Of a stretch of DNA of 64,000 nucleotides, positions 6,405 to 49,859 are shown piece after piece. Position 1 is the stretch's first letter; each line of letters opens with the position of its first letter. The notes below the pieces were generated by a model. It worked only from the letters and a program-made list of their open reading frames with translations, searched no databases and had not been told where the DNA came from. Origin of the DNA: Theocolax elegans. Lineage: Eukaryota > Arthropoda > Insecta > Hymenoptera > Cerocephalidae. Location: assembly GCA_026168455.1 (NCBI GenBank), contig CM047426.1, forward strand, positions 37,201,175-37,265,174. The letters are read 5' to 3'. A program made the translations under genes and the position numbers.

Positions 6405-6406
6405 TG

Positions 6407-22931: not shown

Positions 22932-23492
22932 CTACATCACAGATGAAAGTGTGATTAAATCTAGATTTTAAATTCGCTTGTCATATATTTATATTTTCTG
23001 TTTTAAAGATACTTATGTTTCAAGAGATCAGCGTAGACGTATATCTGTGTTTAACCAAAGATATTTTCCACAATTTCAATATTAATCTCAAGAGAACCTA
23101 CCACATATTATACGCATATGGACTTACTTCAAGGTTGGAACGTACAACCTGTCTAGACACTCTTGAAAATTATTTATTTCATCTACTGCTTGATGATCCA
23201 TCTATGTTAACACCTTACGTATCTGCAAGCGTTTCCGCGATTCAGATATATACACACCAGGTCAGTAAAGTTGAAAGTATGATTTATGCTAGATTTTGAA
23301 ATACTGTTGTCCTATATTTATTTTTCTTGTTTTACAGATACTTTTCTGTATCCAGAGATCGGCGTAGATGTATATGCTTATGGACTTAATTGGACCTATA
23401 TATAACATAGAAAAATTCAGAAATATCGGGTTCCAGATGGTCTAACACAAAAATTAAGAGATTAATACTATTCACTACACGTGTTCAAATGT

Positions 23493-30431: not shown

Positions 30432-30634
30432 TTTATATAAATCTTCGTGTTAAACTAATTAAATATCGGAATCTCACGAATCACTCAACACTTGCGTCAC
30501 AGTTCCTTTAATATAATACTTTTACACTTATCCCACTTCTGAATTGTTAAGAGTGTATAAAGAGGAGAAATAATTGTTCCTTATAATATAATTTTCCAAG
30601 TAATTAAGAATATATTTAATAATGAAGATATAAT

Positions 30635-30907
30635 AGTAGTAAGGGTACCTTATAGCGCGCCGACATGGGCGTGGCCTAACAACAATGGTGTCTGGCGCGA
30701 ACAATGGGAACAATGGGATTGTCTAGCGCGAACAATGGGAACAATGGGAACAATGGGAACAATGGGAACAATGGGAACAATGGGGAACAATGGGGTTGTC
30801 TAGCACGTACAATGGGGTTGTCTAGCGTGGACAATGGGGTGTCTACCCCGGTGGTGACGTCACGGTGGGGGCCCGCGCGTGCCAGAGAGGGAGTGAGAGG
30901 GAAAGCT

Positions 30908-30943
<36 letters not shown>

Positions 30944-31463
30944 TTATGTATAGGTGGGGTGGAACGGACTCTGTGACGTCACAGCGGGCCCCGTCGGAGT
31001 ACATTGGTGCGAGAGAGAGAGGTAGAGGGAGTGCGCGCGCAGTGCGTCTCTCTCGTGCTGAGGTTGCTCCGGCGTCATAGACGCCCCGATGCAGTGCGTG
31101 GGTGTGAGAGAGAGAGGTAGAGGGAGTGCGCGCGCAGTGCGTCTCTCTCTCGTACTGAGTGTGTTCTGACGTTACAGCGGGGCCGAAGGCCCGCGCGTGT
31201 ATGTGTGAGAGAGAGAGCAAGAGGGGTTGCGCGCGCAGTGCGTCTCTTGCAGTAAGAAGAGTGACGCATGTAAGAGAGAGAGAGAGAGAGAGCACTACTG
31301 CGCGTACCCACGCTCTCTTCCTCTACCTCTCTCTCTCGCACTCACGCAGAGATACTGATGATGCGCTAGGGTATTCTGACGCCGTGTTATAATAGCTGAG
31401 CCAGAGCGTCTATGTTGGTGTGAGAGAGAGAGAGAGAGAGAGTGTGTGTGTATACAGTATGCG
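30635..31463. repeat. Left terminal inverted repeat of the Polinton (about 829 bp)
   Basis: Contains (AACAATGGG)n, CT/GA-rich runs and GC-rich segments with 'tgacgtcac' sites. It is inverted relative to 49187-49853 but longer: a block of about 120 bp with 'gagagagaggtagagggagt' and 'gcgcgcgcagtgcgtctc' is present twice here (near 31012 and 31110) and once on the right. LSLSLS ORFs are artefacts. Confidence 0.93.
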
Positions 31464-31901
31464 TATAGACTTATATTTAGCATGGTACGAATGGGAGTTG
31501 GAGGTGAGAGGGTTAAATAATTAAATGTACGTAATTTGTAGATAAATTCCCAGATGTTTATTCAAGTATTATAATATAAAAGGAGAGAACGAGACATAGA
31601 ATGAATAATTACGCACGCAGAGATATACATATAGATGATTATACAATACATAAAATTAAAACTAGATTTGACACTCGGTTAATATTAAGTATAAGAGTAG
31701 CTTAAGAATAGACGCAAAGACACTCACACACATTTTATTATACGAAACTTATAAATAGACAGTGATTCCGGTTGACCTGATAAAACTTATAGTAATTCAC
31801 ACACTTAGATATAGAGTAAATAAGAGTAAAATTATACGTGTTTTGCATTCGGTTAAATATATATTACGTTAATAATAGAAACTTACACCTAATGTACCTG
31901 T
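31464..31901. other. AT-rich spacer between left TIR and the protease gene
   Basis: No ORF; contains poly(A)-signal-like motifs suitable for the end of the minus-strand protease transcript. Nothing else seen. Confidence 0.5.
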
Positions 31902-32456
31902 TTATATATTATAATTAAAATTATTATTATTATTATTATTATGTATTCTTTTACATGTTTGCAAATGAGTTATACAATGAACATTCTTCTTACAATTATT
32001 ATTATAATGAAAATTATTGTTGATATTCTTATAAAATAATTTTAAATTTAATTTATCGTTGTATGCAGTATCGTCGGTGAACAATCTCCAAAAACTGTCC
32101 ATGCAATGACCGTGAGACATGTGATGAATGAAATTAACGCAATACTGACCACACAGGATAGAAGCGAAATCTTGTAGCTGCTTAGGACTCCAGGTGTAAA
32201 CCTTACAGTTTCTTCGGAGACATTGAATATGTTGTGGTACGGTGGGTGGTCGACCGAAACTGTCAAAGAAGTATCCGATTCCGCGTTTATCGATGTAGAT
32301 GGCCAGCCAATGCTTACCGGGTTTTCGGTGGTCCTCATTGTTAACAACAATTGCAGTCGGCTTCGTCAGAATCTGAGGAATCTTGTCCGCAGGGTACACT
32401 CCCACTGTCTGCAGAGGCAAAATTTTTATTGCGTTGAGTATTTGCAACGTGTTCAT
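31902..32456 (-). CDS. PRO: Adenovirus-type (Ulp1-like) cysteine protease, PRO
   Basis: 184 aa. Catalytic order H49 (KPGKHWLAIYI), D65 (FFDSFG), Q95 and C102 (LQDFASILCGQYC) matches the C48/C5 protease group that matures adenovirus-like capsids. The last 60 residues are a low-complexity Asn-rich tail produced by an expanded (ATT)n. The first 116 nt overlap the end of the 329-aa gene in another frame, so the two are tightly packed. It looks intact in its catalytic core. Expected role: cleavage of capsid and core proteins during virion-like assembly. Confidence 0.9.
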   Translation of the reverse strand: MNTLQILNAIKILPLQTVGVYPADKIPQILTKPTAIVVNNEDHRKPGKHWLAIYIDKRGIGYFFDSFGRPPTVPQHIQCLRRNCKVYTWSPKQLQDFASILCGQYCVNFIHHMSHGHCMDSFWRLFTDDTAYNDKLNLKLFYKNINNNFHYNNNCKKNVHCITHLQTCKRIHNNNNNNNFNYNI

Positions 32457-33330
32457 GCTTTGCAGCGGCTTCCTCCTCCTCGCGTACTATGTCGTATAAA
32501 TGATCGGCATCGATCGTATCTTGGGAGATTGTGGAAATACTTGTGTTGCTAGCATCTATAGGAGTTGAGTATGCAGTACAAGTTACGGTTATCGGAGTGC
32601 TCTGTCTTGATTTGGTTGGTGTTGGCGTTTTTTGTCGTGGTTTCCCAGACGGAGTTCCTTGTCTCGTAGACGCAATAATTGTATGTCGTCTTTTGTCCTT
32701 GTTGATGTCCTCTTTTTCCGTTTCCTTCTTTTTTTCTTTTAGATCGATGACTTTGCTGGTTGAAGGGCGATAGGCTAATGTTTTATGCAGCCAAATACGT
32801 AGTTTATATGCATATGTCAATGCACAACTCATGTACTCCCTTTTCCGTCCATGTAAAAAACAAAAGTGGTCGTTAACGCGTGGAAGGTTTCTAAACGACG
32901 GACAGTTGAACTCCTCCAAATTGATTATTTGTCTAGCGAGAAGGTTTTGAAGGAATAAAACTTTAGGTATTCCCCTAACGTAGATCCTCAAAGCGTTTCG
33001 TGCAACTTCTCGTAGACTGTTGTACACGTCGACACTGTTGGATTCACCGTCGAACCATTCTATGCCATGGTGATAGCACGTTAAGTAACTGCTAGTGGCT
33101 ACGATACCCTTGGACAGTTCTGTGTAGTCGTATGGAGCCTTGATCAGCCAGTGCGCTATGAAATTGCAATCTACGCCGAGAACAGCAATTTCTTTCGGTA
33201 GAAAGAGACCTTCCTTGTCGTGAAACGCTTGAATATCGATTATATAATCGAGCTTCTCCATGCCGTTTGAGTTGCGGAGAACTTGAGTCACTTGTACTAC
33301 ACCACTCAAGGTAACAAGCTGAACTGACAA
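32341..33330 (-). CDS. Polinton protein of unknown function (329 aa)
   Basis: The N-terminal 180 residues look globular (GVDCNFIAHWLIKAPYDYTEL, GIEWFDGESN, CPSFRNLPR, CALTYAYKLRIWL). After residue about 200 it turns low-complexity: Lys/Glu-rich, then Ser/Thr/Pro, then an acidic helix and a Cys-rich end. I recognise the N-terminal half only as a Polinton-associated protein without known activity. It lies between capsid and protease genes, so a structural or late role is plausible. It overlaps PRO by 116 nt. Confidence 0.7.
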   Translation of the reverse strand: MSVQLVTLSGVVQVTQVLRNSNGMEKLDYIIDIQAFHDKEGLFLPKEIAVLGVDCNFIAHWLIKAPYDYTELSKGIVATSSYLTCYHHGIEWFDGESNSVDVYNSLREVARNALRIYVRGIPKVLFLQNLLARQIINLEEFNCPSFRNLPRVNDHFCFLHGRKREYMSCALTYAYKLRIWLHKTLAYRPSTSKVIDLKEKKKETEKEDINKDKRRHTIIASTRQGTPSGKPRQKTPTPTKSRQSTPITVTCTAYSTPIDASNTSISTISQDTIDADHLYDIVREEEEAAAKHEHVANTQRNKNFASADSGSVPCGQDSSDSDEADCNCC

Positions 33331-33448
33331 AATGTTTTTCCTTGGCTCAGCAGAATACCTTTAAGACCTCCTTCTTCTCACTGAATTGAAAAGAAAAGTT
33401 TTCAAAGAAAATCCCTACCATTTTTTTTTGACTCCTCCTACTTTGAGT

Positions 33449-34765
33449 TTAAGAATGAAAATCTGTTACGACCTGTCTAGCAGAGTCGATTTCAAGAACG
33501 TTGTCAAACTCGGCATAAACGATACAATTAATCGTTTTATTCAATGCACTTTGAAATTTAACTTCGATTCTGAGACTTCCAGATTTTACTAAATTCCAAT
33601 GAGAAAAACTATTTGCCGAAAAATCTGGTGTAAGATCGAAAGCGAATAGACAATAACCATTAGGGTAATTCTCTCTACTGATAGAATTTCCTTCGTTAAG
33701 AAAATGTATACCAGTACCTGAGAACAAGGTGTGATATGCGTCAACGTACATTGGTCTTGTATTCGAAAACGTAGGTTGTAAAGGTTTCGAAGGTACTTGT
33801 ACACCATCTACGTAGAGAGACAAGTAATTTATACCGTAATTTTGAAAATTGAAAGGATTCAAAGTTTTGTTTCCATTGAAAGCCTTATTATCAACAAATC
33901 CCAGTATCACTCGTTTCGGTAGTTGTCCTAAAATCACGTTGTCGAGTGTTTCACCCAAGACACCGCTATGTATCGTGAATGTTTTGATTTCCACTCTGGT
34001 TATGGGATATTTAGCGGTTGTAGTTGCGAGAGTTTTTGCATGGGCCAATAGAATTCCAGGACTTATTTTCACGCGTCTTACGAGTAAATTTGCTTCGGTG
34101 ATGTTTACGGTGTATGAGCCTGCGGCTGACGAATCCATTAGACAAAATGAATCCTTTGAACGTACAAGACGTATTTTCATTTCGACGCCATTGATGAGTA
34201 ATTTATCCTGATTAAAAATATCGCAATGCAAATGTCCAATGAGATCGACGGTTTTGCCATCGGATGTAAAATTTTGTCTGTTTGCAAGTCCTGCGTTTGT
34301 ACCCTCGTCAGGGGTGCTGTCCATCTGTCTAGGTGTATCTGCGTACCACAAAATCGTCGATAGATGCGATTCTTTAGCTGCTGGGCCGTAATTCAAGAGT
34401 GTTTCTATGTACGCTCTGTACGGATAAGCGTTATTCGGAGGAGTGATTGGTTTCTGATTAAAATAAATATCGATTTGATTAAATAACGAGTGTAAGAAAT
34501 TATTTACAGGTCCTACGTGTTTGTCATCGTCTTTCGAATAAGGCTTGATTTTTACACAAACTTTGAGAAGTGTATGCGCAAGATCCAGGTAATCTTCTCC
34601 TTGATTTTGAACGCAAAATTCGATGGGCGAATCGTCGTTTAACGACGAAATTGGATTATAAGTAGTCCAACAACTCGATTCGATACTGGTTTGCGTTTGA
34701 GGGAGTGAAAATATATCCAACTCGCTTTTGAGACACTCTGAGCTGTGAGAATGTAAAAACGCCAT
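33449..34765 (-). CDS. MCP: Major capsid protein (double jelly-roll, PY)
   Basis: 438 aa, uninterrupted. The N-terminus MAFLHSHSSECLKSELDIF and the block SLNDDSPIEFCVQNQGEDYLDLAHTLL are hallmarks of the insect Polinton PY family (often annotated F54H12.2-like), which forms the double jelly-roll major capsid. Other conserved parts are PVNNFLHSLFNQIDIYFNQK and YPYRAYIETLLNYG. Length is normal for the family. It starts 3 nt downstream of the basic-protein gene. It would build the icosahedral shell, supporting the view of Polintons as potential viruses. Confidence 0.92.
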   Translation of the reverse strand: MAFLHSHSSECLKSELDIFSLPQTQTSIESSCWTTYNPISSLNDDSPIEFCVQNQGEDYLDLAHTLLKVCVKIKPYSKDDDKHVGPVNNFLHSLFNQIDIYFNQKPITPPNNAYPYRAYIETLLNYGPAAKESHLSTILWYADTPRQMDSTPDEGTNAGLANRQNFTSDGKTVDLIGHLHCDIFNQDKLLINGVEMKIRLVRSKDSFCLMDSSAAGSYTVNITEANLLVRRVKISPGILLAHAKTLATTTAKYPITRVEIKTFTIHSGVLGETLDNVILGQLPKRVILGFVDNKAFNGNKTLNPFNFQNYGINYLSLYVDGVQVPSKPLQPTFSNTRPMYVDAYHTLFSGTGIHFLNEGNSISRENYPNGYCLFAFDLTPDFSANSFSHWNLVKSGSLRIEVKFQSALNKTINCIVYAEFDNVLEIDSARQVVTDFHS

Positions 34766-34767
34766 TT

Positions 34768-35370
34768 TTAATTGAAAACGTCAAAATTATTCTTTGTCTT
34801 CTTTTTTGTTTTCGATATTTTCCTCGATTTCTTCTTTTTATTCTGTTTCTTACGCTTCACTTTTGGTTGTAACCGTTTTAAAGACTTGGTTTTTTTTGTA
34901 CGTTTCCTTTTCTTTATACTTTGACGACGTTTGTACTTTTTACGAGGTTTAAGCTGTTTGATACGTACACTTTCACCGTTCCACGGAAACTGTAGAGCTC
35001 TCCTTTTGTTGAATGTTTTATATCCAGACCCCTCCATCATTTTATTAATTTTGTCTACGGCTTTACGTTTCAAATTTTTACCAGATTCGTTCATACGATT
35101 ATTAAACGATTCTTTGAACGACAGATTTCCATCCGACACGTCATCTAATATGTTGACGCCTGCTCGGACTGCTTCTTTACCAAGGGCGCGAGCACCTTTA
35201 GCAATCAAAGGCACCGCTCTTCTAAATAAACCTGCGAGCCAACTACCCACACCGTGTCCTCGTTGCGATGTTGAACCTGCATAAACGTGATGTACGCCCC
35301 GTCCGCTTCCAATTTGACTATCGTAATAAAGAGAGTAATAAGCCATGCCAAACGAACGACACTTAATCAA
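34768..35370 (-). CDS. Basic virion core / minor structural protein (200 aa)
   Basis: The N-terminus has a Gly-rich GSGRGVHHVYAGS stretch, then an amphipathic helix (GSWLAGLFRRAVPLIAKGARALGKEA). The second half is extremely Lys/Arg-rich with nuclear-localisation-like clusters. The GLFRR helix recalls the membrane-active or core precursors of adenoviruses (pVI/pX-like), an analogy rather than a demonstrated homology. It sits between penton-like and major capsid genes; its start overlaps the preceding gene by 8 nt. Probably binds DNA in the particle. Confidence 0.7.
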   Translation of the reverse strand: MIKCRSFGMAYYSLYYDSQIGSGRGVHHVYAGSTSQRGHGVGSWLAGLFRRAVPLIAKGARALGKEAVRAGVNILDDVSDGNLSFKESFNNRMNESGKNLKRKAVDKINKMMEGSGYKTFNKRRALQFPWNGESVRIKQLKPRKKYKRRQSIKKRKRTKKTKSLKRLQPKVKRKKQNKKKKSRKISKTKKKTKNNFDVFN

Positions 35371-36157
35371 TCCTTTTAAAATGTAACGCTGCGGTCAACG
35401 TACCAAACTCGAATGGTATTGGATGACCATATTGATCTCTTATATCAATGTCGATAACTTGAAAACAATTGTAAAGTATGGGTGTATAACTGACGGGTGC
35501 AAAACGTTTAACTACAGTGTTTCCATAATTAAAGTGTTTCGATTGAATATTCACTATGCGAAGCAGTGGTGCGTGAGAATCTCCTACTATACAAGGTTCA
35601 CACAGATTTGAATAAACAAAAAGTTGATCGGGTATGGCTCTCGAGAGGCTGGCGGGAAAATTTGCTACTTGAATCGTCGATCCATCGTAACTTTCAAATT
35701 CTAACGTTTCGTTCAAATCGAAACCTAAAATACGATTAACCGTCGTTGAAAATGTAGCAAACGGTTTCGTACGATTTTCATTTTCTTTGAATTTTATCAT
35801 TTGTACGAAACCTCCGTTTTCGTTATAGACTAATTTTTCAATTTCAGTGTTGCCGTGATATTTGAATAAACTGTCGTTTATACAATCGACAACGTTTATA
35901 CAATCGACAAGCTGATTAATATCATCGTATATACCGTGTTGAAAATAATAGTTTTCCGTTGCCGATAATTTTGATTCCTCTCTGCTCAAGTGCAGGGTAG
36001 TGCAGGGTACGTGTATCTCGGATAGTCCAACCATCCATCGTCCTTGTAAAGCTATCTGCTTTGGTAATTTAGTTGAAAAGCACGTCGTTGTATTGTCTGG
36101 AAAATATTTCATACTACTGTTGCTCGGTAAAACAATGGTAAAATCGTCGGAATCCAT
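35363..36157 (-). CDS. Minor capsid / penton-like protein (single jelly-roll, PX)
   Basis: 264 aa. The pattern DDFTIVLPSNSSMKYFPDNTTTCFSTKL at the start and QLFVYSNLCEPCIVGDSHAPLLR plus FEFGTLTAALHF at the end match the Polinton PX minor capsid family. Residues about 83-96 carry a small direct duplication (VDCIN twice), from an 18-21-bp tandem repeat near 35880-35915. The gene is otherwise intact. It ends 8 nt inside the next gene and begins 2 nt after INT ends. Confidence 0.88.
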   Translation of the reverse strand: MDSDDFTIVLPSNSSMKYFPDNTTTCFSTKLPKQIALQGRWMVGLSEIHVPCTTLHLSREESKLSATENYYFQHGIYDDINQLVDCINVVDCINDSLFKYHGNTEIEKLVYNENGGFVQMIKFKENENRTKPFATFSTTVNRILGFDLNETLEFESYDGSTIQVANFPASLSRAIPDQLFVYSNLCEPCIVGDSHAPLLRIVNIQSKHFNYGNTVVKRFAPVSYTPILYNCFQVIDIDIRDQYGHPIPFEFGTLTAALHFKRID

Positions 36158-36158
36158 T

Positions 36159-37262
36159 TTACAATGCTTTTAAATCGTTGACAGAGACCCACGAATTAAA
36201 TTTTTCAGGATATCCAACCCAACTGACGAAATACTGTTTACGTTTACCTTTGCCTTTACTACGTAAAATTTTATCTATTTTGTGTTCACGATTTTCTACG
36301 CGACAACTATCAACGGCCGTGAGTTCTTCGGGATAAAAGAATCCTTCAATGCTTTCACCGTCCAAATCGGTCAAAGTATAAACGTAAATGTTTTGTTTTT
36401 TCGCAACACTTTTAATTATAAAAATTTCCTCTTGCCATCCTCTGACGTAACCTTTTTCAAAAGCGTTCTTGTCTCTACTGATTCGAACGTAACTACCGAC
36501 TTTGTATATATTCTTTTTCCGTTTCGGTAATTTGTTTCTGCACAGACGTTCTAAATTTTTTCGCACAATCTCTTCGTTGTGAATAGTTACCGAAGCCGGT
36601 GTCATTTTAATGCTAGAATGTCTTGTGTTATTGTAAGCCTTGACGATGTGTTGTAATACGTCAATGTACCTACGAGTATTTTTATGTGTGAAATAACGCC
36701 ACATACGTTCTTTCAGAGTTCTATTTACTCGTTCAACCACCGCAGCCTTCACATCCGGATTACGCACAACGCGAAATCGAATGTCGTTACGTTTTAAAAA
36801 ATTTTGCATAAATTTACCGAGAAACTCCTTTCCTCGATCGCTTTGAACCATGTACGGAAAACGTTCTCCGCTTCGTTTTAAAATTTTTTTGAATGCCTCG
36901 GTTACTTGGTCACTCGATTTGTCTTTCAAAGGTTCCACCCACACAAATTTACTTAAAACGTCGATCGCCACCAAAACGTAAGACACTCCGTCGTTGTAAT
37001 TTTTGATTGAGCGCAAGTCCTGTAAATCGACCTCCCAAACTTGATCTAAATACGACACGTTGTAACACAATCTCTTAAACTTTCTTCGTACAGGACGATG
37101 TAAAGTATAAGCGTCGTATTTTTCCAACCATTTATAGATCTGTTCCCGCGGTACATCTTTATTCAATCTGATTAAATTTCTTGCACCCGAAAACCCTGCT
37201 TCGTGCGAAGGATCAAAATACTGAGACTCTAACCTTTTATTTACATATTTAGACTGAGCCAT
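36159..37262 (-). CDS. INT: Retroviral-type integrase with C-terminal chromodomain, INT
   Basis: 367 aa, intact. DDE catalytic residues D79 (WEVDLQDL), D142 (QSDRGKEFLG) and E177 (KAAVVERVNRT). An SH3-like or linker part follows (YKVGSYVRISRDKNAFEKGY), then a chromodomain at about 322-367 (KIDKILRSKGKGKRKQYFVSWVGYPEKFNSW). It catalyses insertion with 6-bp staggered cuts, consistent with the TATAAT TSD; the chromodomain would steer it to histone marks. The start overlaps the end of the neighbouring ORF by 22 nt. Confidence 0.95.
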   Translation of the reverse strand: MAQSKYVNKRLESQYFDPSHEAGFSGARNLIRLNKDVPREQIYKWLEKYDAYTLHRPVRRKFKRLCYNVSYLDQVWEVDLQDLRSIKNYNDGVSYVLVAIDVLSKFVWVEPLKDKSSDQVTEAFKKILKRSGERFPYMVQSDRGKEFLGKFMQNFLKRNDIRFRVVRNPDVKAAVVERVNRTLKERMWRYFTHKNTRRYIDVLQHIVKAYNNTRHSSIKMTPASVTIHNEEIVRKNLERLCRNKLPKRKKNIYKVGSYVRISRDKNAFEKGYVRGWQEEIFIIKSVAKKQNIYVYTLTDLDGESIEGFFYPEELTAVDSCRVENREHKIDKILRSKGKGKRKQYFVSWVGYPEKFNSWVSVNDLKAL

Positions 37263-38029
37263 TTTTTTTTAATTTCCTTTTTTTTCGAAGACGGTTTTTG
37301 GACAATGGTACTGTTTTTAAGACTGTCGAAACTATTATTAAACATCGAGTTATATTCGTCACTGTCGGATTGATGTACATCTTTTGATTTCGGAGTGTCT
37401 GAAAAACTTAACTTTCGAGTCACATCGTCAAACATTCTTCTATTACCGATATACTCTTGAGGTGTCAAGACATCCTTTAAAAACTTGGTAAATTCTCTTT
37501 TTCCCTCTGGATTGGTCGTTTTTCTGTGTCGTGCAGCAAAATTGATTAAATCAATGATATTTGAATTTTTGATCGTCTTACCGTCAATGGTCACCAGTCC
37601 CTTTCTGTTCCAAAAAATTCTAGTCTTAAAATTATTCAAGTGGTTCAACAAAAGTTCTGATTTTCTTTTATAAACGGATGGAACACTGTTTATTATTTTA
37701 TCGTAAGTAATTTCGTTTTCAATCTCTTAAAATGTATCGTTTGTCAGTGGGTTTGGATATTTTTTTTCAGATTTAAAAAATAAGTAACGTTGTAACAACT
37801 GTATATATTGTTTTAAACGATCTCTGTCATCTAAAATGTTTGTAGAATCTAAAACTCTTTTCATTTCATCGTCGAGTCTGGAGAGATTATCGCCGACAGT
37901 TTGCGTTGTTTGTAAGTTTGAAACATTTTCGTTGGGTTTACCGTCCGTAGAGTTTGATGTAACTGATTGCTTTTGAATTCTTTCCATATGTTCGGCGGGG
38001 ACAAGAATCATTTTCTTTGTTCTTTCCAT
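37241..38029 (-). pseudogene. Conserved Polinton protein, interrupted by one in-frame stop
   Basis: One reading frame of 262 codons runs from MERTKKMILVPAEH (38029) to the stop at 37241, broken only by TAA at 37727-37729. Upstream (100 aa) has LDDRDRLKQYIQLLQRYLFF; downstream (EIENEITYDKIINSVPSVYKRKSELLLNHL, then GLVTIDGKTIKNSNIIDLINFAARHRK) continues in the same frame. I know this layout as a widespread Polinton and insect-repeat protein without assigned function. The stop is either a recent nonsense mutation or a read-through site; the downstream half could restart at Met 37651. Confidence 0.75.
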
Positions 38030-38031
38030 TA

Positions 38032-38406
38032 TTACTGTAAAAGCGTGGAAAAGAGCGTCGATATTATAGGCTGTAGTAGAAACGGTAAGAAACTACCACC
38101 CTTTTGCACGATTATACACTTCTTTTTTTTCCAGCAGCCGTTAGTCTTGTTGCATAATTTTCTGAGAATATTTTTGTGACGTTTTAATTTTTTAAATTGA
38201 CAATCTTTCAAAGGTACTACACCTTGTAAAGTATTTAAAGCGCACTCACAAATATATTTAATTAATTTTTTATCGGCGGTTTTTAATATTGCTAAACGTT
38301 GCTCTTTGTTTGCTCGTGCTAAAGCGTGCAACAGAACAACGTACCTTTGTTCAAATACTTTTGATTTATTTTTTACTCGGAAAGATTTCGATGTAGTCTT
38401 TGCCAT
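38032..38406 (-). CDS. Small conserved Polinton protein (124 aa) with hydrophobic C-terminus
   Basis: A basic protein: a helical first half (FEQRYVVLLHALARANKEQRLAILKTADKKLIKYICECALN), a Lys-rich middle, then VQKGGSFLPFLLQPIIST, a short hydrophobic segment. This arrangement recurs in many Polintons next to the ATPase and is of unknown function; a membrane-associated virion role is possible. It ends 3 nt before the next gene starts, as in a tightly packed transcription block. Confidence 0.7.
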   Translation of the reverse strand: MAKTTSKSFRVKNKSKVFEQRYVVLLHALARANKEQRLAILKTADKKLIKYICECALNTLQGVVPLKDCQFKKLKRHKNILRKLCNKTNGCWKKKKCIIVQKGGSFLPFLLQPIISTLFSTLLQ

Positions 38407-38459
38407 TATCGTTCTTAAACTGAAGTATCATCTGCTTGATACTTTTATTTATTGTATTT

Positions 38460-39123
38460 TTAAATATATTTTATAAATGTACTACTACGATTTTTAGGCA
38501 CATAGACGTAATGAAACTCGTCGTCTGGAAATATACAGCTTCGAAATCGAAACTCGTCGGGTGTTGCCTGCGTCAAATCTAATAAAAGATAACCGTATGC
38601 CTGTTTTACAGCATCTAGATATGCTTCCTGCAAAAATTTAGCGTCTTCGGGGTACACTTGTCGCGCGAGATATCGAATTTGAGCTTGGTCCCGAGGATTT
38701 TTAAACAACACTATGTAATTTGAGTTTAAGCTGACGTCGCGTTGACCCTGTCCTTGATGAAAAATATTTTGAGTTATAAAAATAACACTTATATTTTTAT
38801 GATGACATCCTTTGGTAAATAAATCGATTATAACACTGTTTGACGATTCACGCATCAAGTCGTCGATTATAATTAATTTTTTCAAATGTGGATCGTTTGA
38901 ATAATCTTCGGGTCTCGGTAGACCCTCGCGAAATTCAACACACGAAAACTCTTGACTTTTGTAACCAGTCTTGCCACTCTCCGTAATAAAAAATAATCCT
39001 ATCGAAAACAACGTCGGTCATTTGAGTACGAAACTTTATGAATTTTCGAACCCACACCGATTTACCACAACTCGTAGGACCGGAAATCGTACAAGTCCAC
39101 GGATGACGCCAACGCGTATCCAT
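38460..39123 (-). pseudogene. Genome-packaging ATPase (FtsK/HerA-like), one frameshift
   Basis: 39123-38935 gives DTRWRHPWTCTISGPTSCGKS with the Walker A motif GPTSCGKS. 39011-38460 gives Walker B (KKLIIIDDLM), the downstream VIFITQN sensor-type stretch and FKNPRDQAQIRYLARQ. The pieces overlap in different frames; a single-base indel near 38950-38975 (sense QKSQEFSCVEF) separates them. Upstream of the ATG the same frame has a poly-proline run from a (CCG)n tract at 39149-39171, but a TGA precedes it. Would pump DNA into capsids if intact. Confidence 0.88.
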
Positions 39124-39262
39124 TTTGTGATAAGGTCGTTCCGCGTTCGGCGGCGGCGGCGGCGGCGGCGGTCAACGCGCTGCTAGAGTTTTAGTGTCGT
39201 TTTATTTAATTAGCTAAACGCGGAATAAAAAGCATATTTAGCGGACGCTGCGCAATGTTAAT
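39124..39262. repeat. (CGG)n tract and GC-rich upstream region of the ATPase gene
   Basis: Seven to eight CGG triplets (39149-39171) in a 72% AT setting, just upstream of the ATPase start. A set of degenerate 30-bp repeats of type 'acgcgg..aaaaaccttttttga' continues to about 39390. They could be a promoter-proximal element; nothing firmer can be said. Confidence 0.5.
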
Positions 39263-39263
39263 T

Positions 39264-39605
39264 TTACAGCGTTGCGCAGACCAGCTGACCCAGCGACGTA
39301 CGCGGGAAAACCTTGCTTGTACGCGGACGCTGAAAAAAGCTTGTTTGAACGCGCACGCGGAAAAACCTTTTTTGAACGCGTTCGCTTAGAATAGCTGATT
39401 TATGAGCGCGGGTGAGCGGACGAGGTACTATTTCACTAAAACTATTATTATGTAACGCCATCTGTTCAAAATCACAACCATTAAGCGTATAATTTATCGA
39501 TTTTTCCTTTTTTTGAATCCAATATTCTCCCACGATAGGATGACTGCGATTTAACAAATTAACAAAGGAAGGCGTAGTTTTTATTACGAGGTATTGTTGA
39601 CTCAT
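39264..39605 (-). CDS. Hypothetical Polinton ORF (113 aa)
   Basis: MSQQYLVIKTTPSFVNLLNRSHPIVGEYWIQKK is a plausible globular start. The second half is Arg-rich and is encoded by the degenerate 30-bp repeats upstream of the ATPase, so it may not be the true C-terminus. No family recognised. Position before the ATPase suggests it could be an early or accessory gene, or an exon spliced onward. Confidence 0.4.
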   Translation of the reverse strand: MSQQYLVIKTTPSFVNLLNRSHPIVGEYWIQKKEKSINYTLNGCDFEQMALHNNSFSEIVPRPLTRAHKSAILSERVQKRFFRVRVQTSFFQRPRTSKVFPRTSLGQLVCATL

Positions 39606-40429
39606 CTACAAAGGAAGATGCGTTGTCCTTTTTCCTTTTTTACAGAAAGAAATGTAATAAAAAATTTTGACTACTTTTCTATTGTACGTTTTCTAAATTT
39701 ATATCTGTTTGTCAATTTATTAGTTTGTCAATGTATTAGTTTTTCAAATATTTAAAAATAGAATTCCGCGAAGACAAGGTGTCCAAGAAGAATACATGAA
39801 AAAATCTTTTGAGTACACGTAACGTATAAAATTTAATTTACGAGATTGAGTAAAAGCTTGAGCATACGATTGTTAAACTTTTTTTAAATAACAATATTCA
39901 AATATTAGATTCCCACACTTTTAGAGAATGACATCTGTTCAAAGATTATCGTTAAATGAATTATTTATAGAATTTTCTTTATACTCTCAAAATTATTCCA
40001 CGACTCTATAAAAATTTATGTAATTCTTAAAATTTTAAAAATTTACAAAAGAAGTTTTTATTTATTACGCGTATTGTTCATTTACCGACAAACGTAGACG
40101 CGTGAACTTTCTTTATAGTAAGAAATAAATAATCTTTACGACTTTTTATTGTATATTTTTAAATTTATGACGTTTCATCCGTTTCTTACTTTGTCAACTA
40201 CACAAAAACGTACACGGAATAAAAATCTATTCAAACTTTTCTTGCGATATTGCGAGAAAAATAATTTTTACGTATACGCACCTTCCCACGATATCCTCCC
40301 TTACAACTTACCCTCGATTTTCCTTGGAGGTGGTACCTAAGTAACGCTGCAACCTCACCATTGGCCAAAATTTTTTCCTATTTTATTTTACTCCCTCTGC
40401 TAATTTTTCCACCTCTACTCGTCGTCGAC
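39606..40429. other. AT-rich spacer upstream of the Tudor-like gene
   Basis: About 820 bp without supported genes. It divides the minus-strand structural block from the plus-strand Tudor-like gene and probably holds promoters for both. Confidence 0.5.
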
Positions 40430-40464
40430 TTAAATATCGAAACTTTGTGTAGGGAGAGTCAGTC
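40430..40464 (+). promoter_or_regulatory. TATA + initiator core promoter of the Tudor-like gene
   Basis: TTAAATAT at 40430-40437 and TCAGTC at 40459-40464, which matches the arthropod initiator TCAKTY with +1 at 40461. The spacing of TATA at -31 to -24 is the textbook distance. The ATG at 40503 would follow a 42-nt leader. Confidence 0.6.
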
Positions 40465-40502
40465 ATTTTTTAAAACTACAGCTAAAATAGAATTTTGGCA
40501 AA

Positions 40503-41326
40503 ATGTCGAGTAACTGTAGGATACACGTTTTGAGAGATTTAAAACATCGCGACATGAGAAGAATAATTAATTCGAAACAAAGTGTAAGAGTGTCAACGTT
40601 TCATACCCCTTCGTCTTTCTACGTACAAATAATCGACGAAGACGAAGCGTACAGTGCTCAACAGAAGGAAATCAACGAGTATTACGAAGTAGTACCGAAA
40701 TACATTCACACCGAAAAAATTGTGTCTGAAAATAATCAAGAAAGAGTAGTCATTGTACCTGTGACTAGTAAATTAAATTATGCAGACCTTTATGTAAGTA
40801 TACAAAGAAATTTAAACAATGACAATGAAAATTAATTTAATAATTAAATAATTTATTAATATTATTTTTTCAGCCAAGTCAGTTTATTGCTATAAAGGTA
40901 AACGGTGAATGGGGACGATATATCACGGATGACGTCATCGAACGTTGCAGATCGGTAGACACTGGAGATAGTATCGAGCTTACCCAAGACGTAATAGAAA
41001 ATGGGATCTATGACTTGGACGATCGTTTCATGCTGCTACCCTCGAGAGTCATACTATGCGGACTTTCAAACATATTACCAAAAACTGATAAACCGCATCG
41101 ATGGACCGTCAAAGCTTGTAAAATTATGAAGGACGTAATGACTGATCGAAAGTTAACCGCAATTTTTCAGCATAAAGGACTATTTCACGACTCTGCGTAT
41201 ACTTGCTTAACGTGTCAAGATAATACCGAGATACATTTAGGTTGGTTACTCGTAGCGTTAGATTTAGCGATATTCGATGCAAGCGGAATTCATCATCCAC
41301 TCTGGCCAACCGATACACCTTGTTAA
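40503..41326 (+). CDS. Tudor-domain (eTud-like) protein carried by the Polinton, two exons
   Basis: Exon 1 is 40503-40793 (97 codons), intron 40794-40873 (80 bp, GTAAGT...TTTTTTCAG), exon 2 is 40874-41326; phase 0, 247 aa. Exon 1 has HTPSSFYVQIIDEDEAYSAQ, the SNase-like entry strand of extended Tudor domains (SPSEFYVQ type). Exon 2 has PSQFIAIKVNGEWGRYITDD, VDTGDSIEL, DDRFMLLPSRVILCGLSNILP and WTVKACKIMKD, in the same order as eTud domains (GxWYRA, VDYG, F..LP..A..C.L..I.P, W...A). Some aromatic-cage positions look changed (VDTGD for VDYGN), so methyl-arginine binding is uncertain. It is not among the canonical Polinton genes. A role in the piRNA pathway or particle assembly is inference. Confidence 0.75.
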
Positions 41327-41585
41327 TATTAAAAATAAAAACTCTTACCTTGGAAATGTTATATTATTGTTATTAGAATTTAAAATTTGATAATAAATAT
41401 ATGTTTGAAATATAATTGATTGTACGTTTATTTAAATACCTGAAAATAAAAATAAAAGGATAAGGAACAGAATAGGGGAAAAAAAGTAAATTGCAAATGT
41501 TTAATTTTTAAAATAAATATTTAATTATCATTAACGTTATATTTATATACATATATACATAGAGTTATAATTGAACGCAGGATAA

Positions 41586-44500
41586 TTATATATGACCGAA
41601 CGGAAGAGACAAAGTATTTGAAACAAATCTTCGTTTTTTCAAAACGACGCTACAAGTTTTTGTTTCTTCGCGAGTGATAACTTCGTGGAATCGGGTCCTT
41701 GCAATCGAATTGAACTGCAATTGTATTTTATTTTTATCGTCATCGTTTCTATTATTAATAAGATTTACGATACTGTCAAAATTAATCTTTTTTGAATTTT
41801 CATAATTTAATTTTATTCCTTTAATTTTACAAATTTCAAATGTTTCATTTTTACTATTTCTTACCTTGAAAGCATAAAATTTTGGACCTCCTGAAACAAA
41901 TTTTTCAATATATGAACCTTTACCGTAAATTTCCAATTCGCAGGTTAATTCGCCTAGCATGGACCCTACCTTTGGTTCGTACGTATCACTCGGTTTACTT
42001 GTAAAAATAATTGAGTCGGTGTCGTAGTAAAGTACGCGTCTATCTAGTTTTTCTAAATACGAGTACAATAACAAACGAGCCTGTGCTGTAGTGTAGGCGG
42101 CGATCGCTACGTTACTACCCCCCGACTCAGTTTCTGTTTCTTTAATGTATTCTATAGAGACATAGAGTACCTCGTCGTTCGCTATAACGATTTGTTTCAC
42201 ATTTATCTCGGGGTCTGAAAAAAGTTTGAGCAAGCTTTGATAATCTTTGACGATTTCCGTTCTCGTCAGATTATCGCGTTGCCCAAACTTTCCCCAGAAT
42301 GAATTTAAACATAATTTAGCTACCGAGCGTAAACCAGGGTTTTTTTTAATTAATTTCGGATCTAAATTTATACCCTCTTTATTTTTATACTCTTCTATAA
42401 ATTGTTTTTCTTTTATGTCGTCTGTACATTCACTGGGATACCCACTGGCCTCTTGCTTTAATTTTAAAAAAGTATTAATATATTCGTTAAAAAGACCGTC
42501 TGTATTGGCTGTATATTGACAAACACTATACTGCCAAATCGCGTGAATTTTTATTAATTTATAGCCGCGTTCTAAACTTTTTTTTATTTCATCAGACACC
42601 CATGTACCGGTAAAAATACGTTCTTCCTCCCGGTCGTGCGTACACTCTTGCTCATTTAGCATTTCTGTACACGTACGACACAATGGAAAAAGTAATCTTT
42701 CGTGCATTTTTACCGGTAACACGGGATGAAATAAATTTCGCGGAGGTAAAATGTCGCATTTTACTAAACCTTCGACATTATTGAAATTTTTAAAATCGGT
42801 ACCTGCTAATTCGTTACAATTTTGACCAATATAAATTTTTGGATGACCTAGCGGGTATTTTCCGTACTTGTTAATGTACGGATACAGCGAACATACGTCT
42901 AAATATTTAATTTTTTCGCTGTCTTTCGTCTCGTACATAATTACGGTATTACCTGTACGACCACCGTAAAACGCATCCCTCGGTTCTATTTTAATCCCTT
43001 TTAAAAGAGGATGTGATTTTAAAAAGTTATTTAAATCGGTATTATCTGATAAATATTCTTTGAAATCACACCCCCACATTTCTATTACAATATATCCGAA
43101 GCTTTCAATGTTTTTAGTTTTTAAAACGGTTTTTTCGTAACGACTGTTAAAAGTCGAACCGTCTGTTAAAATTTTATCACGACTCGACGAAAAACAGCGA
43201 GGACACCCGTGGTAAAAACAACCGTGATATTCATAAACGGTACCCTTATGGTTTACGCTCGGTAAAAAACCATCAACTCGGAAACCTTCGGTTAAAATAT
43301 ATTCTCGAGCGCGTGCGGCGTGTATAATTTCGCGACCGATTTTTTTTTCTTCGCACAGAAGCCACGAAATAGCTTCTTGTGAATTTTGTCCCGTTTGCGC
43401 ATAGCCAGTTGACGGTATTATACCTATTGTATCTTTTTTTAAAAAATTTTTACGGTATAATATCGAACAGGCTGAAGCTATCGTTACAGCTTCTTCAAAT
43501 GGGCAAACGTTATATTTTTTAAATATTTCGCGAAAATTTATACACGCCTCTCGCAATATATTTACATCGTCTATACAATATTTTATTATTTCGTTGCGTA
43601 AATTATATACATTATTTTTGTCAATACTATTGTACCAATTATAGAAGGTTTGTCGATCTTCGTTCGACATCGTTTCGGGGGAAAAATATTTATCATCCGG
43701 AATCGAGCCTACATAATTTATATTTTCTTTTGTATTAAAAAGATGTGGAAAGTAGCCTTTCTTTACATCAACTGAAAGCCCAAATGCTTTGGGTAAATTT
43801 GCCAATTTCATTGGCATGTAATTGATACTATCAATAAATTTTGTATTTTTTAATTGCAATTTTATAATATTTCGACCGTTCATAATAACGGTTGGCGAAA
43901 CATTTTCATTCAAATAAATTTTAGAAAAATCGATTAAATATTTTAAAATAAATTGAGAATCGAAAGCCCGTGCGTTATGCGCAATACAAATAATATCATT
44001 AAAATTCGTTTTTCTTCGAATGACTAAATTTAAGAAATCACGTATCGAATTATCACCTTCGAATACGTGTTGACGAACACCGCAAAACGAACACAAATTT
44101 TTCAAATCGGTTTTTTTACAATCGTCGCAACATAATTGTGCGACACATAAATTAACACTATGTTTCAAAGATTTTTCTCCGTAAATTTCATCTTGACGGG
44201 TCTCAAAATCATAAAAAATAAATTGAGTAGTCGGATGATAATTATTTTTCCTCCTTACACGCGTTTCTTGAATTGGTTCAATATTACATAATTTATTTAT
44301 AGAATGTCTCGAACGACATCTACTACAATATTTTTCACCGCAAATGTGTAATTCTTTTCTTAAATCTACAATAAGGTTACATGTAGAACAATATTTTAAA
44401 CTATCGCATACGCTTTTTACAGTTTTTTTTGATGCTTTGCAGCTTATCGAGCCGGGTCGCTTGTGCATTTGAAAACACGCGTCATTATAAAATACGCGCT

Positions 44501-46792
44501 TACAATCAATGCACGAAATTTCGTTTAATTTTTCACAATTTGAATCATTTAAACATTGAGTGCATTGTTTCGTACACTTGTGAGACAGAACGTTTTTGTA
44601 TGCTACATTGCAATTTATGCAATATCGAAATTTTGACACGATACCTAATATATTTAAGATTAAATCAAAATGTTTATTATTAAAATTATACAATAAATAA
44701 ATTGTTTTAATATTTATACTTTCGTCAGAAAAATACGATGTTCCGTCAAAAATCGGTTTTGCGCCTTTTCCAAAATTATTTTCTTCAAAAATTATTAATT
44801 TTATATTTTTTTCAAGAAAATAATTTTGAAATAACCTAAATTCATCAGGACCACATCCGTTTTCTGGAACTTTTATTTTCGCAAGAGTGCACAAGTTTCG
44901 TGCACACTCTGTTTGTCGAAAACGCATGTGGTGAGAAATAGCCTTCCATTCGCTTCGCCATTCGGGAGTGTCTACTTTCCTCGAGTAGACTTCACCGCAA
45001 GCAAGAGCGCGGGGTAGACATAAATTATCTTTATTTTTTATTCTGAGAATTGATTTTTTATGAAAATCAACCTCTTTGTTCTCAACACCCGAATTTCCCT
45101 TTCCGACGGGCATTTCAACGTAAACAACACTGATATTCAACGATTCATCAATTGAAAAATCGGTATTGCTTTGACAGACCTTGCCAAACAATTCCCATAT
45201 TTCTTTTGATCGAAAATCTTGTACGCGTGTAAAACGCGACCCGGCACTTCCTAACGCAAATTTGTCGGAACTTAAAGTTATTCCGATCATATCACTGTTC
45301 GAGCGATCTTTTAATATATAACGAGTTATTTCATGAAACGCGTCTTCGACATATTTAACAGGATTTTCGTTTCCTGCATAATCTGTAATCTTAAATTTTA
45401 TCTCGCGACCTAATGTACGAAAACGGGGCACGTATCGTTCGCTATTTGCCTGAAGATGTACACGTTGAAATTCAGCGGTACGGCCTCCACCTATTTGTTT
45501 TTCACACGAAGACGCTAAATAAAAATATAATATTATTATTACTATATAATTCGCTTACTAATTTTATAAAAATTTAAAAGTTATTATTTTAATTATTTTT
45601 CAACGCGATGCCGTAAAGAATCGAATGCTCGTAAAATTGAATCGGCTGTTGGCGGATATAAGTGAGGGGACAGCTCGTACTCCTCGCTTATCCATACCCC
45701 GACTCGCCAAGCCGTCGACAGATATTCTCGATTGTCGAAAAACAATCGTCTTCGAGCTTAAATATATATTATTAAATTAATATTACTTTTAAACCTATAT
45801 ATGTTTAGAATTATAGAATTATTTTAACACGTTTTATTATTTTCATTATTTTAATTTTTAATTTTCAATACAGATTATTGTAGTGTTGTATTGAACAAAA
45901 AGTGTTAAAATATTTCTATATCTATTGTAAAAAGTAATAAAGTGTTACTCACCGATTTGCGATATCTGACCTAATGCGTAATCATTTAACGCATATTCTG
46001 ATACTTTAGGAGTTTTGCAACATATCCATCCAGATCCAAGTGGCCTCTCGTCGCGACCCGATATCCTCCTTTTACGACTACAATTTGGGGCTGCTTGGAC
46101 AACATAGTCGTCATCTTCATCGTCCGAGAGATTTTCATTTCGGCTGGACATTTGAATTTCCATCCTCTCGATAGCTTGTTTGGAATTTCGCGCAAGCTTT
46201 TTGTCGATGCAAGCAGCCTCGCGCTCGAGTTCACTTAGCGTCCTCTGCCCTCGACTACGTATCTCCGCTATACGTTCTGCTTGACGAATGGTTGGTTCGG
46301 GTATTTCTCTCTGAACCGCTATGTCGCCTAACTGCCGACGTAATCGAGGAATACAGCTGTCCTCCGTATCCGTTATAATTTCTAAAATTTATTTAAGATA
46401 AATAATTAAAAAATTGTATAATTATTATTTGTATTTATATTTTTAAAACCGAAATAACTACCTAATCTTTCGTAATGTTTAAAAAATTCGTCCAATAACA
46501 TATGGTTTCTAAGACCGCGAGAAATTAATATATCACCCGCGATCAACGTTGCAAACTCTTCGTCATGTAAAAACATTTTATAAATTAAAATAAACTGTTC
46601 TACACTTAAAATTCGGATAATTTCGATCATACAATCGCGAGCCTGATTTAACGTCATGTTGCTCCCTAAGAAAATAAAAAAATCGCGATCGAACGTTTCC
46701 GTTAATGACGGTATAAAAACCGATAAAAATCCAATAATGCGAGATAAAATTAATATAAACTTATTATAAATTTTTCCTTCCATTGCGAACAC
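41586..46792 (-). CDS. PolB: Protein-primed family B DNA polymerase, three-exon model
   Basis: Main exon 45514-41586: Exo I FIFYDFETRQDE, Exo II IAHNARAFDSQFIL, Exo III YCIDDVNILRE, motif A DVCSLYPYINKYGKYP, motif B KLCLNSFWGKFGQR, motif C YYDTDSIIF; all catalytic acids present and no stops. Extending upstream of the first Met (45431) the frame runs to an acceptor (TTTTTATTTAG). Exon B 46381-45953 (donor G|GTGAGT) and exon A 46792-46462 (donor G|GTAGTT) join in phase, giving 331+429+3929 nt = 1562 aa. Exons A and B add helical and acidic, basic-patched sequence (ENLSDDEDDDYVVQ), perhaps part of the terminal-protein region. It replicates the element from protein-primed ends. The main exon is certain; the two upstream exons are inferred. 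Confidence 0.9.
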
Positions 46793-47516
46793 TTGTTTTA
46801 TTTAGCGTTGCGCGATTTCTATTTTTAATAATTATTTTAAACGTTCGTTTTTTGCAGTTTAAAATTTTTCCTGCGTTAATTTGCGAATGTGTGTACTTTT
46901 TTATTCAGTGTCACTTTTTTCAGTACATTCACAAATACACTTTCACAGTTTTATAATATATAGTTTTTATAATAGAACTCGAACACGAAATTATATTTTT
47001 ATGTACGCGTTAAGGTTCTTTCGCGTCGAGAGCAAGATTTGGACTAACTACGATCTCCAATTTTTCCTAGCAAATTAACTTTTTCTATGACAACCCCACT
47101 CTTACTTTTTTTTTTGTAAATTTCTAGACACAACGAAAAACCTCAAAGACGTTTAGAAAAATCTTTCGAAAAACGTTACCTACGATTGATTGAAAAAGAA
47201 GGAAACATAAATTTTTTGCGTTTCGCGTTACTTTACCAACGCCTTACAAATTTTCAATAATTGGCAGAATTTTACGATCAGGGTTTTCTTTTGAAATTTG
47301 TACGAACAAAAATTTTCTTTCGAGACATCGTCGTCTTTTGCCTTATGCATTTTCGTTCGAAACAAGTATCTTTACGCGTTTTCCTTCTCTTCTAAAATAT
47401 GTAAAAGAACCTCTTTCTTAATACATGTGACTTTGAAGTTACTTGTACAAACCCGTAACCCTCTAACTAGACCCCCTCCTATTTTACGAGCGACCTTTGC
47501 GCGGAACCGGCCAGGG
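46793..47516. other. Divergent intergenic region between PolB and the right-end gene
   Basis: AT-rich, no supported ORF. Likely holds the PolB promoter on the minus strand. Confidence 0.45.
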
Positions 47517-47552
47517 TTTAAAAGGGACACACCGTTCACCCTGAATGCAGTA
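47517..47552 (+). promoter_or_regulatory. TATA + initiator-like core promoter of the 279-aa gene
   Basis: TTTAAAAG at 47517-47524 and GCAGTAT with +1 near 47549, about 32 nt from the start of the TATA box. The ATG follows at 47633. Same layout as the promoter at 40430. Confidence 0.5.
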
Positions 47553-47632
47553 TTACAGCATCTTTTCTGTAAACTAGTTTTCCTATAATCGGTAAACTCG
47601 TCGAGACCTGTGCGACATAAAGTATTACAAAG

Positions 47633-48472
47633 ATGACTCAAGCATTGTTAGAAACTGATTTTATTTTTACCGAAGACGAAACCTTCAAACAAATGGATAG
47701 TGAGAAAAAAGTGTCTGTGAATTTAGAAGATAAAAGACATACGCTGCATCGAAATTTACTCGAAACTTCGTACTCGCTAAATAAATCGGCTACAAAAATA
47801 ATAAATGTCAGTGTACAAGTTTTTCATAATCAAAAAATGGAACCCGTTATTCAATTGTTAAATCAAACTCACTCGACAGGACTAGTAATCGATTCGGATA
47901 CTTGGGTAGAACTACAAAATAAACTCGACGAAATATCGGAATATTTTAATAACGACAATGACTTATCTTATAAAAGTCGAACAAGAATCTACATCAACGA
48001 TTTGGAAATAATTTTTGCTACTTCGTATGGAGGAAAATCTATTATTTTGAATAAAACGTCAAAATTATCCAACGGAAACAAAACAGAAAAGAAGAGAAAA
48101 TGTTTTCAACCAGCTATAGTTATGCAAAAATCAACTTTCGAAGGACTAAAGGATAGTATTTTTTGTGTGGAAGAACGATATCGTCGACTCGAACGCTATA
48201 TCAACGATATTGAAAAATGTAAAAATTTTATTTGCGATATTGTGAAAGAAAAAGTTACCGATTATAATTTAAATTCACGCGAAGGACGAAATTTCTTTAA
48301 AAGTTTTGTGATCGGTAATTATGACATAAAATCGAGAGTAAAAGATCGATTTAATTACGAAGAGTCTAAATTTTTCTTAGAATATTACTTTGATATTGTA
48401 TACTTGGAGTTAACATGCTTTCATTCTAATTATATTTGTGATGAAATAATACGTATGTATTACAATGTATAA
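47633..48472 (+). CDS. Polinton right-end protein, unknown (279 aa)
   Basis: A complete ORF. Residues about 60-105 (INVSVQVFHNQKMEPVIQLL, STGLVIDSDTWVELQNKLDEI) show two strands then a 'GLxIDxxTWxxL' strand-helix, a pattern faintly like PC4/p15 single-strand DNA-binding proteins. Residues 180-279 are helical and rich in Tyr, Phe and Lys. I recognise it only as a common type of Polinton right-end gene. It is transcribed alone away from PolB. Confidence 0.65.
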   Translation: MTQALLETDFIFTEDETFKQMDSEKKVSVNLEDKRHTLHRNLLETSYSLNKSATKIINVSVQVFHNQKMEPVIQLLNQTHSTGLVIDSDTWVELQNKLDEISEYFNNDNDLSYKSRTRIYINDLEIIFATSYGGKSIILNKTSKLSNGNKTEKKRKCFQPAIVMQKSTFEGLKDSIFCVEERYRRLERYINDIEKCKNFICDIVKEKVTDYNLNSREGRNFFKSFVIGNYDIKSRVKDRFNYEESKFFLEYYFDIVYLELTCFHSNYICDEIIRMYYNV

Positions 48473-48900
48473 TATATATTGCCTGTAATATCTCGTAAAA
48501 TATTTAAATAAATCGGCACTTACCTCGTACATAATTTTGTATTTCGTATTTACTTACCTAACATTTTTCCTTCCTGCTACAACATGAAAATAAAAAGAAA
48601 ATCTTCTCACGCGTTTATTCTATTTTCTTAAATACGCTCACCTTACGATAATTTATTGCTTCTCTTTCGTACTAACCGCAATACTTACTTTACCTATTAA
48701 GATAAATAGCTTCCCGGTAAACCAAAATCCTCCGGTCACCCTCGCCTCTATTGTCTGCACACCTGCACTTTTGGGTATACGACCTTTTCTCACGACGAGT
48801 CGACTTTTAACCTTTTTGAATACACCTACGACATTTATATTTTATAAAATAAGCTTACGTTCAAATTTTATTTCATTTCCGTTTGATTATTCAAACACGA

Positions 48901-49067
48901 TGGGTCCAAACCAAAGTTCAGATCGAGTTCCTCTCATCGATAAAAAATCCAATACTAAGGATAACAGTAATCATCATTCAATGTCGTCGCAATGGAAAAA
49001 ATATACGGAAAAAGTTTCAATAAATAATAAATCATTGCCACAGAAAGACGGTTACAAAAAATTGTAA
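48901..49067 (+). CDS. Small polar protein beside the right TIR (55 aa)
   Basis: ATG at 48901 (acacgATGGG) opens 55 codons, very hydrophilic (Ser, Lys, Asn) with no recognised domain. An upstream in-frame Met (48771) exists, but the extra sequence is AT-rich and looks non-coding. It could be a real short gene near the terminus or a chance ORF. Confidence 0.35.
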
Positions 49068-49186
49068 ATTTATATTTAATAAATAATAATAAACGGCCCT
49101 TTTTAGGGCCACCAATAATAAACGTAAATAACATATTCGTTCAATATCTAAAATTGTCACCTATCATTTCCTCTCTCTCTTACAAA

Positions 49187-49853
49187 TGCATACTCTCTCA
49201 CACACACACACCAACATAGACGCTCTGGGTCAGCTATTATAACACGGCGTCAGAATACCCTAGCGCATCATCAGTATCTCTGCGTGAGTGCGAGAGAGAG
49301 AGGTAGAGGAAGAGAGCGTGGGTACGCGCAGTAGTGCTCTCTCTCTCTCTCTTACATGCGTCACTCTTCTTACTGCAAGAGACGCACTGCGCGCGCAACC
49401 CCTCTTGCTCTCTCTCTCACACATACACGCGCGGGCCTTCGGCCCCGCTGTAACGTCAGAACACTCTCAGTACGAGAGAGAGACGCACTGCGCGCGCACT
49501 CCCTCTACCTCTCTCTCTCGCACCAATGTACTCCGACGGGGCCCGCTGTGACGTCACAGAGTCCGTTCCACCCCACCTATACATAAGTACTCTTTCCCTC
49601 TCACTCCCTCTCTGGCACGCGCGGGCCCCCACCGTGACGTCACCACCGGGGTAGACACCCCATTGTCCACGCTAGACAACCCCATTGTACGTGCTAGACA
49701 ACCCCATTGTTCCCCATTGTTCCCATTGTTCCCATTGTTCCCATTGTTCCCATTGTTCGCGCTAGACAATCCCATTGTTCCCATTGTTCGCGCCAGACAC
49801 CATTGTTGTTAGGCCACGCCCATGTCGGCGCGCTATAAGGTACCCTTACTACT
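49187..49853. repeat. Right terminal inverted repeat of the Polinton (about 667 bp)
   Basis: Inverted copy of 30635-31463, ending AAGGTACCCTTACTACT. It has fewer 9-bp AACAATGGG units and lacks the duplicated block of about 120 bp of the left TIR. TSD TATAAT follows at 49854-49859. Confidence 0.93.
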
Positions 49854-49859
49854 TATAAT

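Follow-up and report, generated by a model that had tools for sequence, protein, structure and literature searches.

A Polinton in the genome of Theocolax elegans carries a gene, predicted to be spliced, whose product would be a stand-alone extended Tudor (eTud) domain. The identity of the product as an eTud, its presence in one Polinton family and its maintenance by selection are, taken together, very probable. The best explanation of the whole, which comes near an even chance but falls short of it, is that eTud DNA was captured, kept under selection and used to interfere with the PIWI scaffolds of the host. Regardless of mechanism, the element shows a germline-defence domain captured by a Polinton and retained under selection. 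The window analysed was a stretch of 64,000 nt (assembly GCA_026168455.1, contig CM047426.1, positions 37,201,175 to 37,265,174, forward strand), to which unprefixed coordinates refer.

The Polinton and its predicted spliced gene

The Polinton spans 30635-49853 (19.2 kb). Its AGTAGT ends read AGTAGTAAGGG, the arms of its terminal inverted repeat (TIR) at 30635-31436 (+) and 49193-49853 (-) pair with each other, and TATAAT is found on both flanks (30629-30634 and 49854-49859) as a 6-bp target-site duplication (TSD), as in Polinton/Maverick elements. AGT twice repeated is reported as the commonest vertebrate Maverick end (PMC8097293). The DNA polymerase B gene (PolB) was located at 41586-45554 (-) (DNA_pol_B_2, Pfam E = 7.8e-47), convergent to the Tudor gene. 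Its nearest named relatives were proteins of ants and wasps, and 2186 relatives were found in a search of 5.8 billion proteins. An rve integrase with a chromodomain was located at 36159-37268 (-) (Pfam, rve E = 9.8e-17, Chromo E = 6.3e-6). No relative of PolB or of the Tudor protein was found in viral contigs.

The putative A32-type packaging ATPase (38460-39171, -) is frameshifted and lies in two reading frames in this copy. We take 38938-39171 to be its Walker A part; the remainder, at 38460-39017, is in another frame and matched Pox_A32 weakly (17.9 bits, below the Pfam cut-off of 22.8). The ATPase was 54-65% identical over 50-52 residues to the ATPase ORFs of nine sister loci. The window copy is thus partly decayed, with the ATPase split over two frames and the Tudor gene and PolB still open. 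A possible cysteine protease was seen at 31902-32486 (-) (weak Peptidase_C5, E = 0.046, below cut-off). ORFs of 443 aa (33449-34780, -) and 268 aa (35363-36169, -), of fitting size, had no Pfam match and are presumably the major and possibly the minor capsid protein, respectively. The element also contains a very basic ORF of 208 aa (34768-35394), and further ORFs of 283, 147 and 131 aa (47621-48472, + and 45945-46801, -) had no Pfam match. To our knowledge, the canonical Polinton gene set does not include a Tudor gene.

The initial annotation had described a TIR-bounded Polinton with the gene well inside it, between ATPase and PolB. The paired TIRs, AGTAGT ends, TSD, PolB and rve bore out the element, and the position of the gene (40503-41326 within 30635-49853) agreed. 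The reading frame starts with ATG at 40503 and gives a predicted spliced product of 247 aa. Exon 1 (40503-40793, +, 291 nt) would encode residues 1-97, which make up the N-terminal SN-like part of the eTud and its linker. It is followed by a predicted phase-0 intron of 80 nt (40794-40873, +, GTAAGT...TTTCAG) and by exon 2 (40874-41326, +, 453 nt), which would encode residues 98-247 and the stop, with the Tudor core and the C-terminal SN-like part. Forty copies were fetched from the genome and aligned with that of the window, giving 41 rows. A TATA-like box, TTAAATA (40430-40436, +), an initiator-like TCAGTC (40459-40464, +) beginning 29 nt past the start of the box, and a polyadenylation-type signal AATAAA (41334-41339, +) were identical in 34, 38 and 37 of these rows, respectively. 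The intron had GT..AG in 38 of 41 rows and a length of 80 nt in 33. These motifs are consistent with the TATA/Inr promoter of its own and the short phase-0 intron that had been proposed for the gene. Exon 2 was 459 nt long in most copies and 453 nt in the window and in copy L009 (difference at ~41215-41230); these two are close sisters, since both have the exon shorter by 6 nt.

Other features were seen elsewhere in the window. What we take to be a piggyBac-like transposase ORF lies just outside the Polinton at 27749-28864. A tandem duplication of ~1.58 kb with 99-100% identity (4827-8034) lies in a stretch with ORFs that are presumably retroelement-like. Tandem repeats of ~72 bp and 216 bp lie at 23469-24677 and 19569-20979, respectively, and an ORF at 60146-60562 resembles part of an insect odorant receptor.

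Relation of the product to extended Tudor domains

Pfam alone gave weak evidence of Tudor identity, but comparison with host eTuds, both by profile and in pairs, gave strong evidence. In the HMM search for a Tudor domain, which the initial annotation had proposed as a check, the spliced protein passed the TUDOR cut-off narrowly (23.6 bits against 23, E = 5.7e-5), and the match covered residues 23-75 only. Exon 1 alone scored 21.8 bits, and exon 2 alone had no Pfam match. A scan of the whole genome with PF00567 (TUDOR) yielded 26 matches, none of which was a Polinton copy. A PDB sequence search with the Tudor protein returned nothing at E<=10. The two exons were folded apart with single-sequence AlphaFold, producing unusable models (pLDDT 37 and 39). 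In the search of 5.8 billion proteins, where a word filter limits the meaning of an absence, the spliced protein had 272 candidates, none at E<=1, and exon 2 had 2 candidates, neither a relative.

Profiles were compared using hhalign. The query comprised 20 near-identical Polinton proteins, which the program treated as a single effective sequence, and the target was an alignment of 12 host eTud stretches, in which one row (L074) was spliced out of frame. This comparison gave a probability of 95.6 and a score of 48.9 over columns 12-246, which cover both exons, and the best of 60 column shuffles scored 11.8. The single window protein scored 62.8 against the same 12-row alignment (probability 96.06), and seven other ORFs of the element scored 9.2-15.4 (probability <=0.27). 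Pairwise comparison was done with 13 host domains (L074 excluded; row L054_eTud_b joined at ORF ends, not splice sites). The nearest was one eTud of a multi-Tudor gene at C3:61.03 Mb (L054), with a local score of 97, while none of 300 shuffles exceeded 50 (z = 12.8). Second came the eTud of Papi (z = 7.8), third the neighbouring eTud (z = 7.5), and six of the 13 had z<=1.3. BLASTP aligned the L054 eTud with the Polinton protein over 220 columns at 23% identity (E = 4e-8, this being a single comparison). By sequence, a Tudor core would lie between two SN-like halves (hhalign columns 12-246, pairwise residues 14-233), and the eTud-like arrangement first proposed for the 247-aa product was borne out by the profile alignment over both exons. 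A chance similarity to Tudor would fit the marginal Pfam score, the empty PDB search and the unusable exon models, but it is very improbable given the shuffle-controlled profile and pairwise comparisons, the controls with other ORFs and the collinearity over both exons. Separately, the host multi-Tudor gene (C3:61028357-61040995) has a seeming internal duplication of ~3.23 kb, with pairs of equal-score TUDOR matches at that spacing, which may belong to the gene itself or come from the assembly.

Introns were compared at the boundary of linker and core by aligning FIAI, VIAV and IVAV, with the host splice sites read by eye. The phase-0 intron of the Polinton gene precedes PSQFIAI. In the L054 eTud, a phase-0 intron separates ...EPLK from VGSSVIAV and is offset by one codon from that of the Polinton gene; the L061 eTud, which is of TDRKH/Papi type by its PDB matches to TDRKH structures, has one between ...ILDN and ISVGQIVAV, offset by two. 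Papi had been considered as the nearest host eTud for its intron, and ranked second by its z of 7.8 against 12.8. The other long ORFs listed for the element were intron-free as far as they were read. Host introns near the same place, together with intron-free ORFs in the rest of the element, suggest that the Polinton captured a piece of eTud DNA with its intron. The match could also be coincidence, because introns near this boundary are common in host eTuds and some, those of L068 and L074, are in phase 1.

The positions that we take to form the methyl-arginine cage were read from the same alignments. At the positions of the canonical WYR and F/Y-x-DYGN, the Polinton protein has W-G-R and S-V-D-T-G-D by the profile register, and VDTGD aligns with VDYGD in BLASTP too. 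All 20 distinct intact proteins have K105, G111, S124, T127 and D129. hhalign and BLASTP place the first core strand in different registers; G111 and K105 belong to the profile register only, and are less certain as cage positions than S124, T127 and D129. In the nearest host eTud, too, D takes the place of the expected cage asparagine. As aligned, the Polinton protein does not have the aromatic cage and asparagine of eTuds that bind symmetrically methylated arginine (sDMA). Because the residues aligned to the cage are replaced, a simple decoy acting through sDMA binding appears unlikely.

Copies, sister families and selection

The genome (658 Mb) was searched with the Tudor gene, yielding at least 170 matches at E<=1e-3 (150 of 220 candidates scored). 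Among the matches listed, only the near-identical family was found, with at least 56 near-full-length exon-2 places. A convergent PolB end lay within 2.5 kb at 39 of these 56, using PolB ends from 63 of 107 PolB rows (>=68% identity, minus three short pieces). The order and orientation ATPase - Tudor - PolB were kept in 31 of the 40 fetched copies. The spliced frame was intact in 25 of the 41 rows, which gave the 20 distinct intact proteins. The Tudor gene is present twice in tandem at one locus (L026, C3:28643200-28647030), with a third copy at C3:28656232.

Other Polintons were found in the same genome by a PolB search at 49-56% identity (104 scored among 1284 candidates). Of 41 such places, ten were read beyond the PolB end; by likeness they make up about four families. 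Between the PolB end and the ATPase start, nine of the ten have 235-481 nt, and the window has 2466 nt; the tenth (L082) is disrupted and has no recognisable ATPase there. The ten stretches beyond the PolB end had no Tudor match (best 3.7 bits, E = 0.86), and none by tblastn. The initial annotation had allowed for a gene absent from all related Polintons, as a private chance insertion. The gene was found in many copies in one family and was absent between ATPase and PolB in nine of ten sister loci; the idea of a private insertion was not upheld, as the gene belongs to a repeated family. In a locus of another Polinton family (L079, C2:10280500-10283000), an ORF on the minus strand (1-429) has a stretch, CGPGTKL...NPLDEGCRRHDIAYAD, that we take to be phospholipase A2-like. 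Such a stretch is known from parvoviruses and adintoviruses.

Variants in the 41 rows were divided into those private to a single row (152 nonsynonymous, 53 synonymous, 10 stops) and those common to at least two rows (5 nonsynonymous, 21 synonymous, 1 stop). The two ratios differ (Fisher p = 7.5e-8). The neutral N/S expectation is 2.3-3.0, and private variants of the Tudor gene look neutral, as for decay after insertion. The 25 intact rows alone gave 61:24 for singletons against 3:10 for shared variants (p = 0.0011), and the window with 16 broken copies gave 94:46 against 2:10 (p = 0.0009). An earlier count on a different alignment (40 rows, without L047) had given 166:52 against 7:17. The PolB end of the same loci, used as control, gave 137:61 against 19:25 (p = 0.0016). 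Shared variants were counted without a tree, and their number could be raised by recurrent hits or by whole loci duplicated later; such additions should resemble singletons and would therefore weaken the contrast. Since shared variants are mostly silent and private ones near neutral, the Tudor protein was under purifying selection while the Polinton family multiplied. A host gene fragment carried along by chance, without function, would agree with the presence of the gene in only one of the families tested. With 25 of 41 rows intact, shared variants strongly silent, and conserved motifs of promoter-like, splice and poly(A) type, we give this very little credence.

Possible roles of the captured domain

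In the proposed mechanism, a Polinton lineage would have gained one eTud, most like one of the multi-Tudor gene of the host, with the intron at the boundary of linker and core, and would have carried it between ATPase and PolB. The protein would be expressed from its own promoter as a stand-alone domain of 247 aa and would bind RG/RA-rich tails without methylation, as Krimper eTud1 binds Ago3. It may then compete with or redirect host PIWI-Tudor scaffolds, so that piRNAs would silence the element less strongly. Binding independent of methylation is suggested because the residues aligned to the cage are replaced. Krimper eTud1 is reported to bind unmethylated Arg70 of Ago3 through a pocket of Asp373, Thr380 and Leu397 with no aromatic cage, and unmethylated arginine to be preferred by TDRD2, in which one of the cage residues is replaced (PMC8249470). 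Our best guess is a similar methylation-independent grip on PIWI or another RG-rich partner.

An anti-piRNA mechanism in general is a tentative reading, and eTuds serve partners other than PIWI, which counts against it. The more specific proposal, that the Polinton encodes its own piRNA antagonist, a cage-less eTud drawing PIWI off host Tudor scaffolds independently of methylation, is less likely than not. The eTud might instead act as an adaptor of localisation, docking RNA, proteins or particles of the element on germ granules (nuage) or germ plasm and favouring germline transmission, with silencing unblocked. Tudor proteins of the nuage are scaffolds, the protein is under purifying selection, and an eTud can hold a partner by a surface that is not the cage, as reported for BmVreteno eTD1 with BmGtsf1L (PMC10711660); we regard this role as unlikely, and no evidence here favours it over interference. 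It is more improbable that the eTud serves within the element, binding arginine-rich tails of element proteins (e.g. that of the highly basic ORF at 34768-35394) and aiding assembly or packaging. Such a use would agree with the uptake of unmethylated arginine by cage-less eTuds (PMC8249470), but the sister Polinton families read in the same genome do without such a gene at that place.

If interference with PIWI scaffolds is the true role, the gene would encode a transposon protein aimed at piRNA silencing, of which we know no other in animals. One genome offers a natural comparison of the family that carries the gene with sister families where none was found at that place, and this makes the effect of the eTud on the silencing of its own family directly testable. 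In titles and the starts of abstracts of the open-licence literature, no mention of a Polinton with a Tudor gene was found; the one Tudor passage of PMC11244446 concerns KDM4.

The element resembles Polinton/Maverick (adintovirus-like) elements in its AGTAGT-ended TIRs, 6-bp TSD, PolB, and rve integrase with chromodomain, and its ATPase gene lies on the side of the Tudor gene away from PolB. It differs in having an extra, intron-bearing eTud gene between ATPase and PolB, where nine of the ten sister loci have none and the tenth is uninformative. The predicted protein resembles the eTuds of insect piRNA proteins (multi-Tudor, Papi/TDRKH) in the collinear order of an N-terminal SN-like part, a Tudor core and a C-terminal SN-like part, in an LP..I.CGL.NI.P stretch, and in a phase-0 intron at the boundary of linker and core. 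It differs from them as a single domain standing alone, with a longer linker, replaced cage residues and low identity (23%) to the nearest host eTud. Its polar, non-aromatic residues at the cage positions are a point of likeness to Krimper eTud1.
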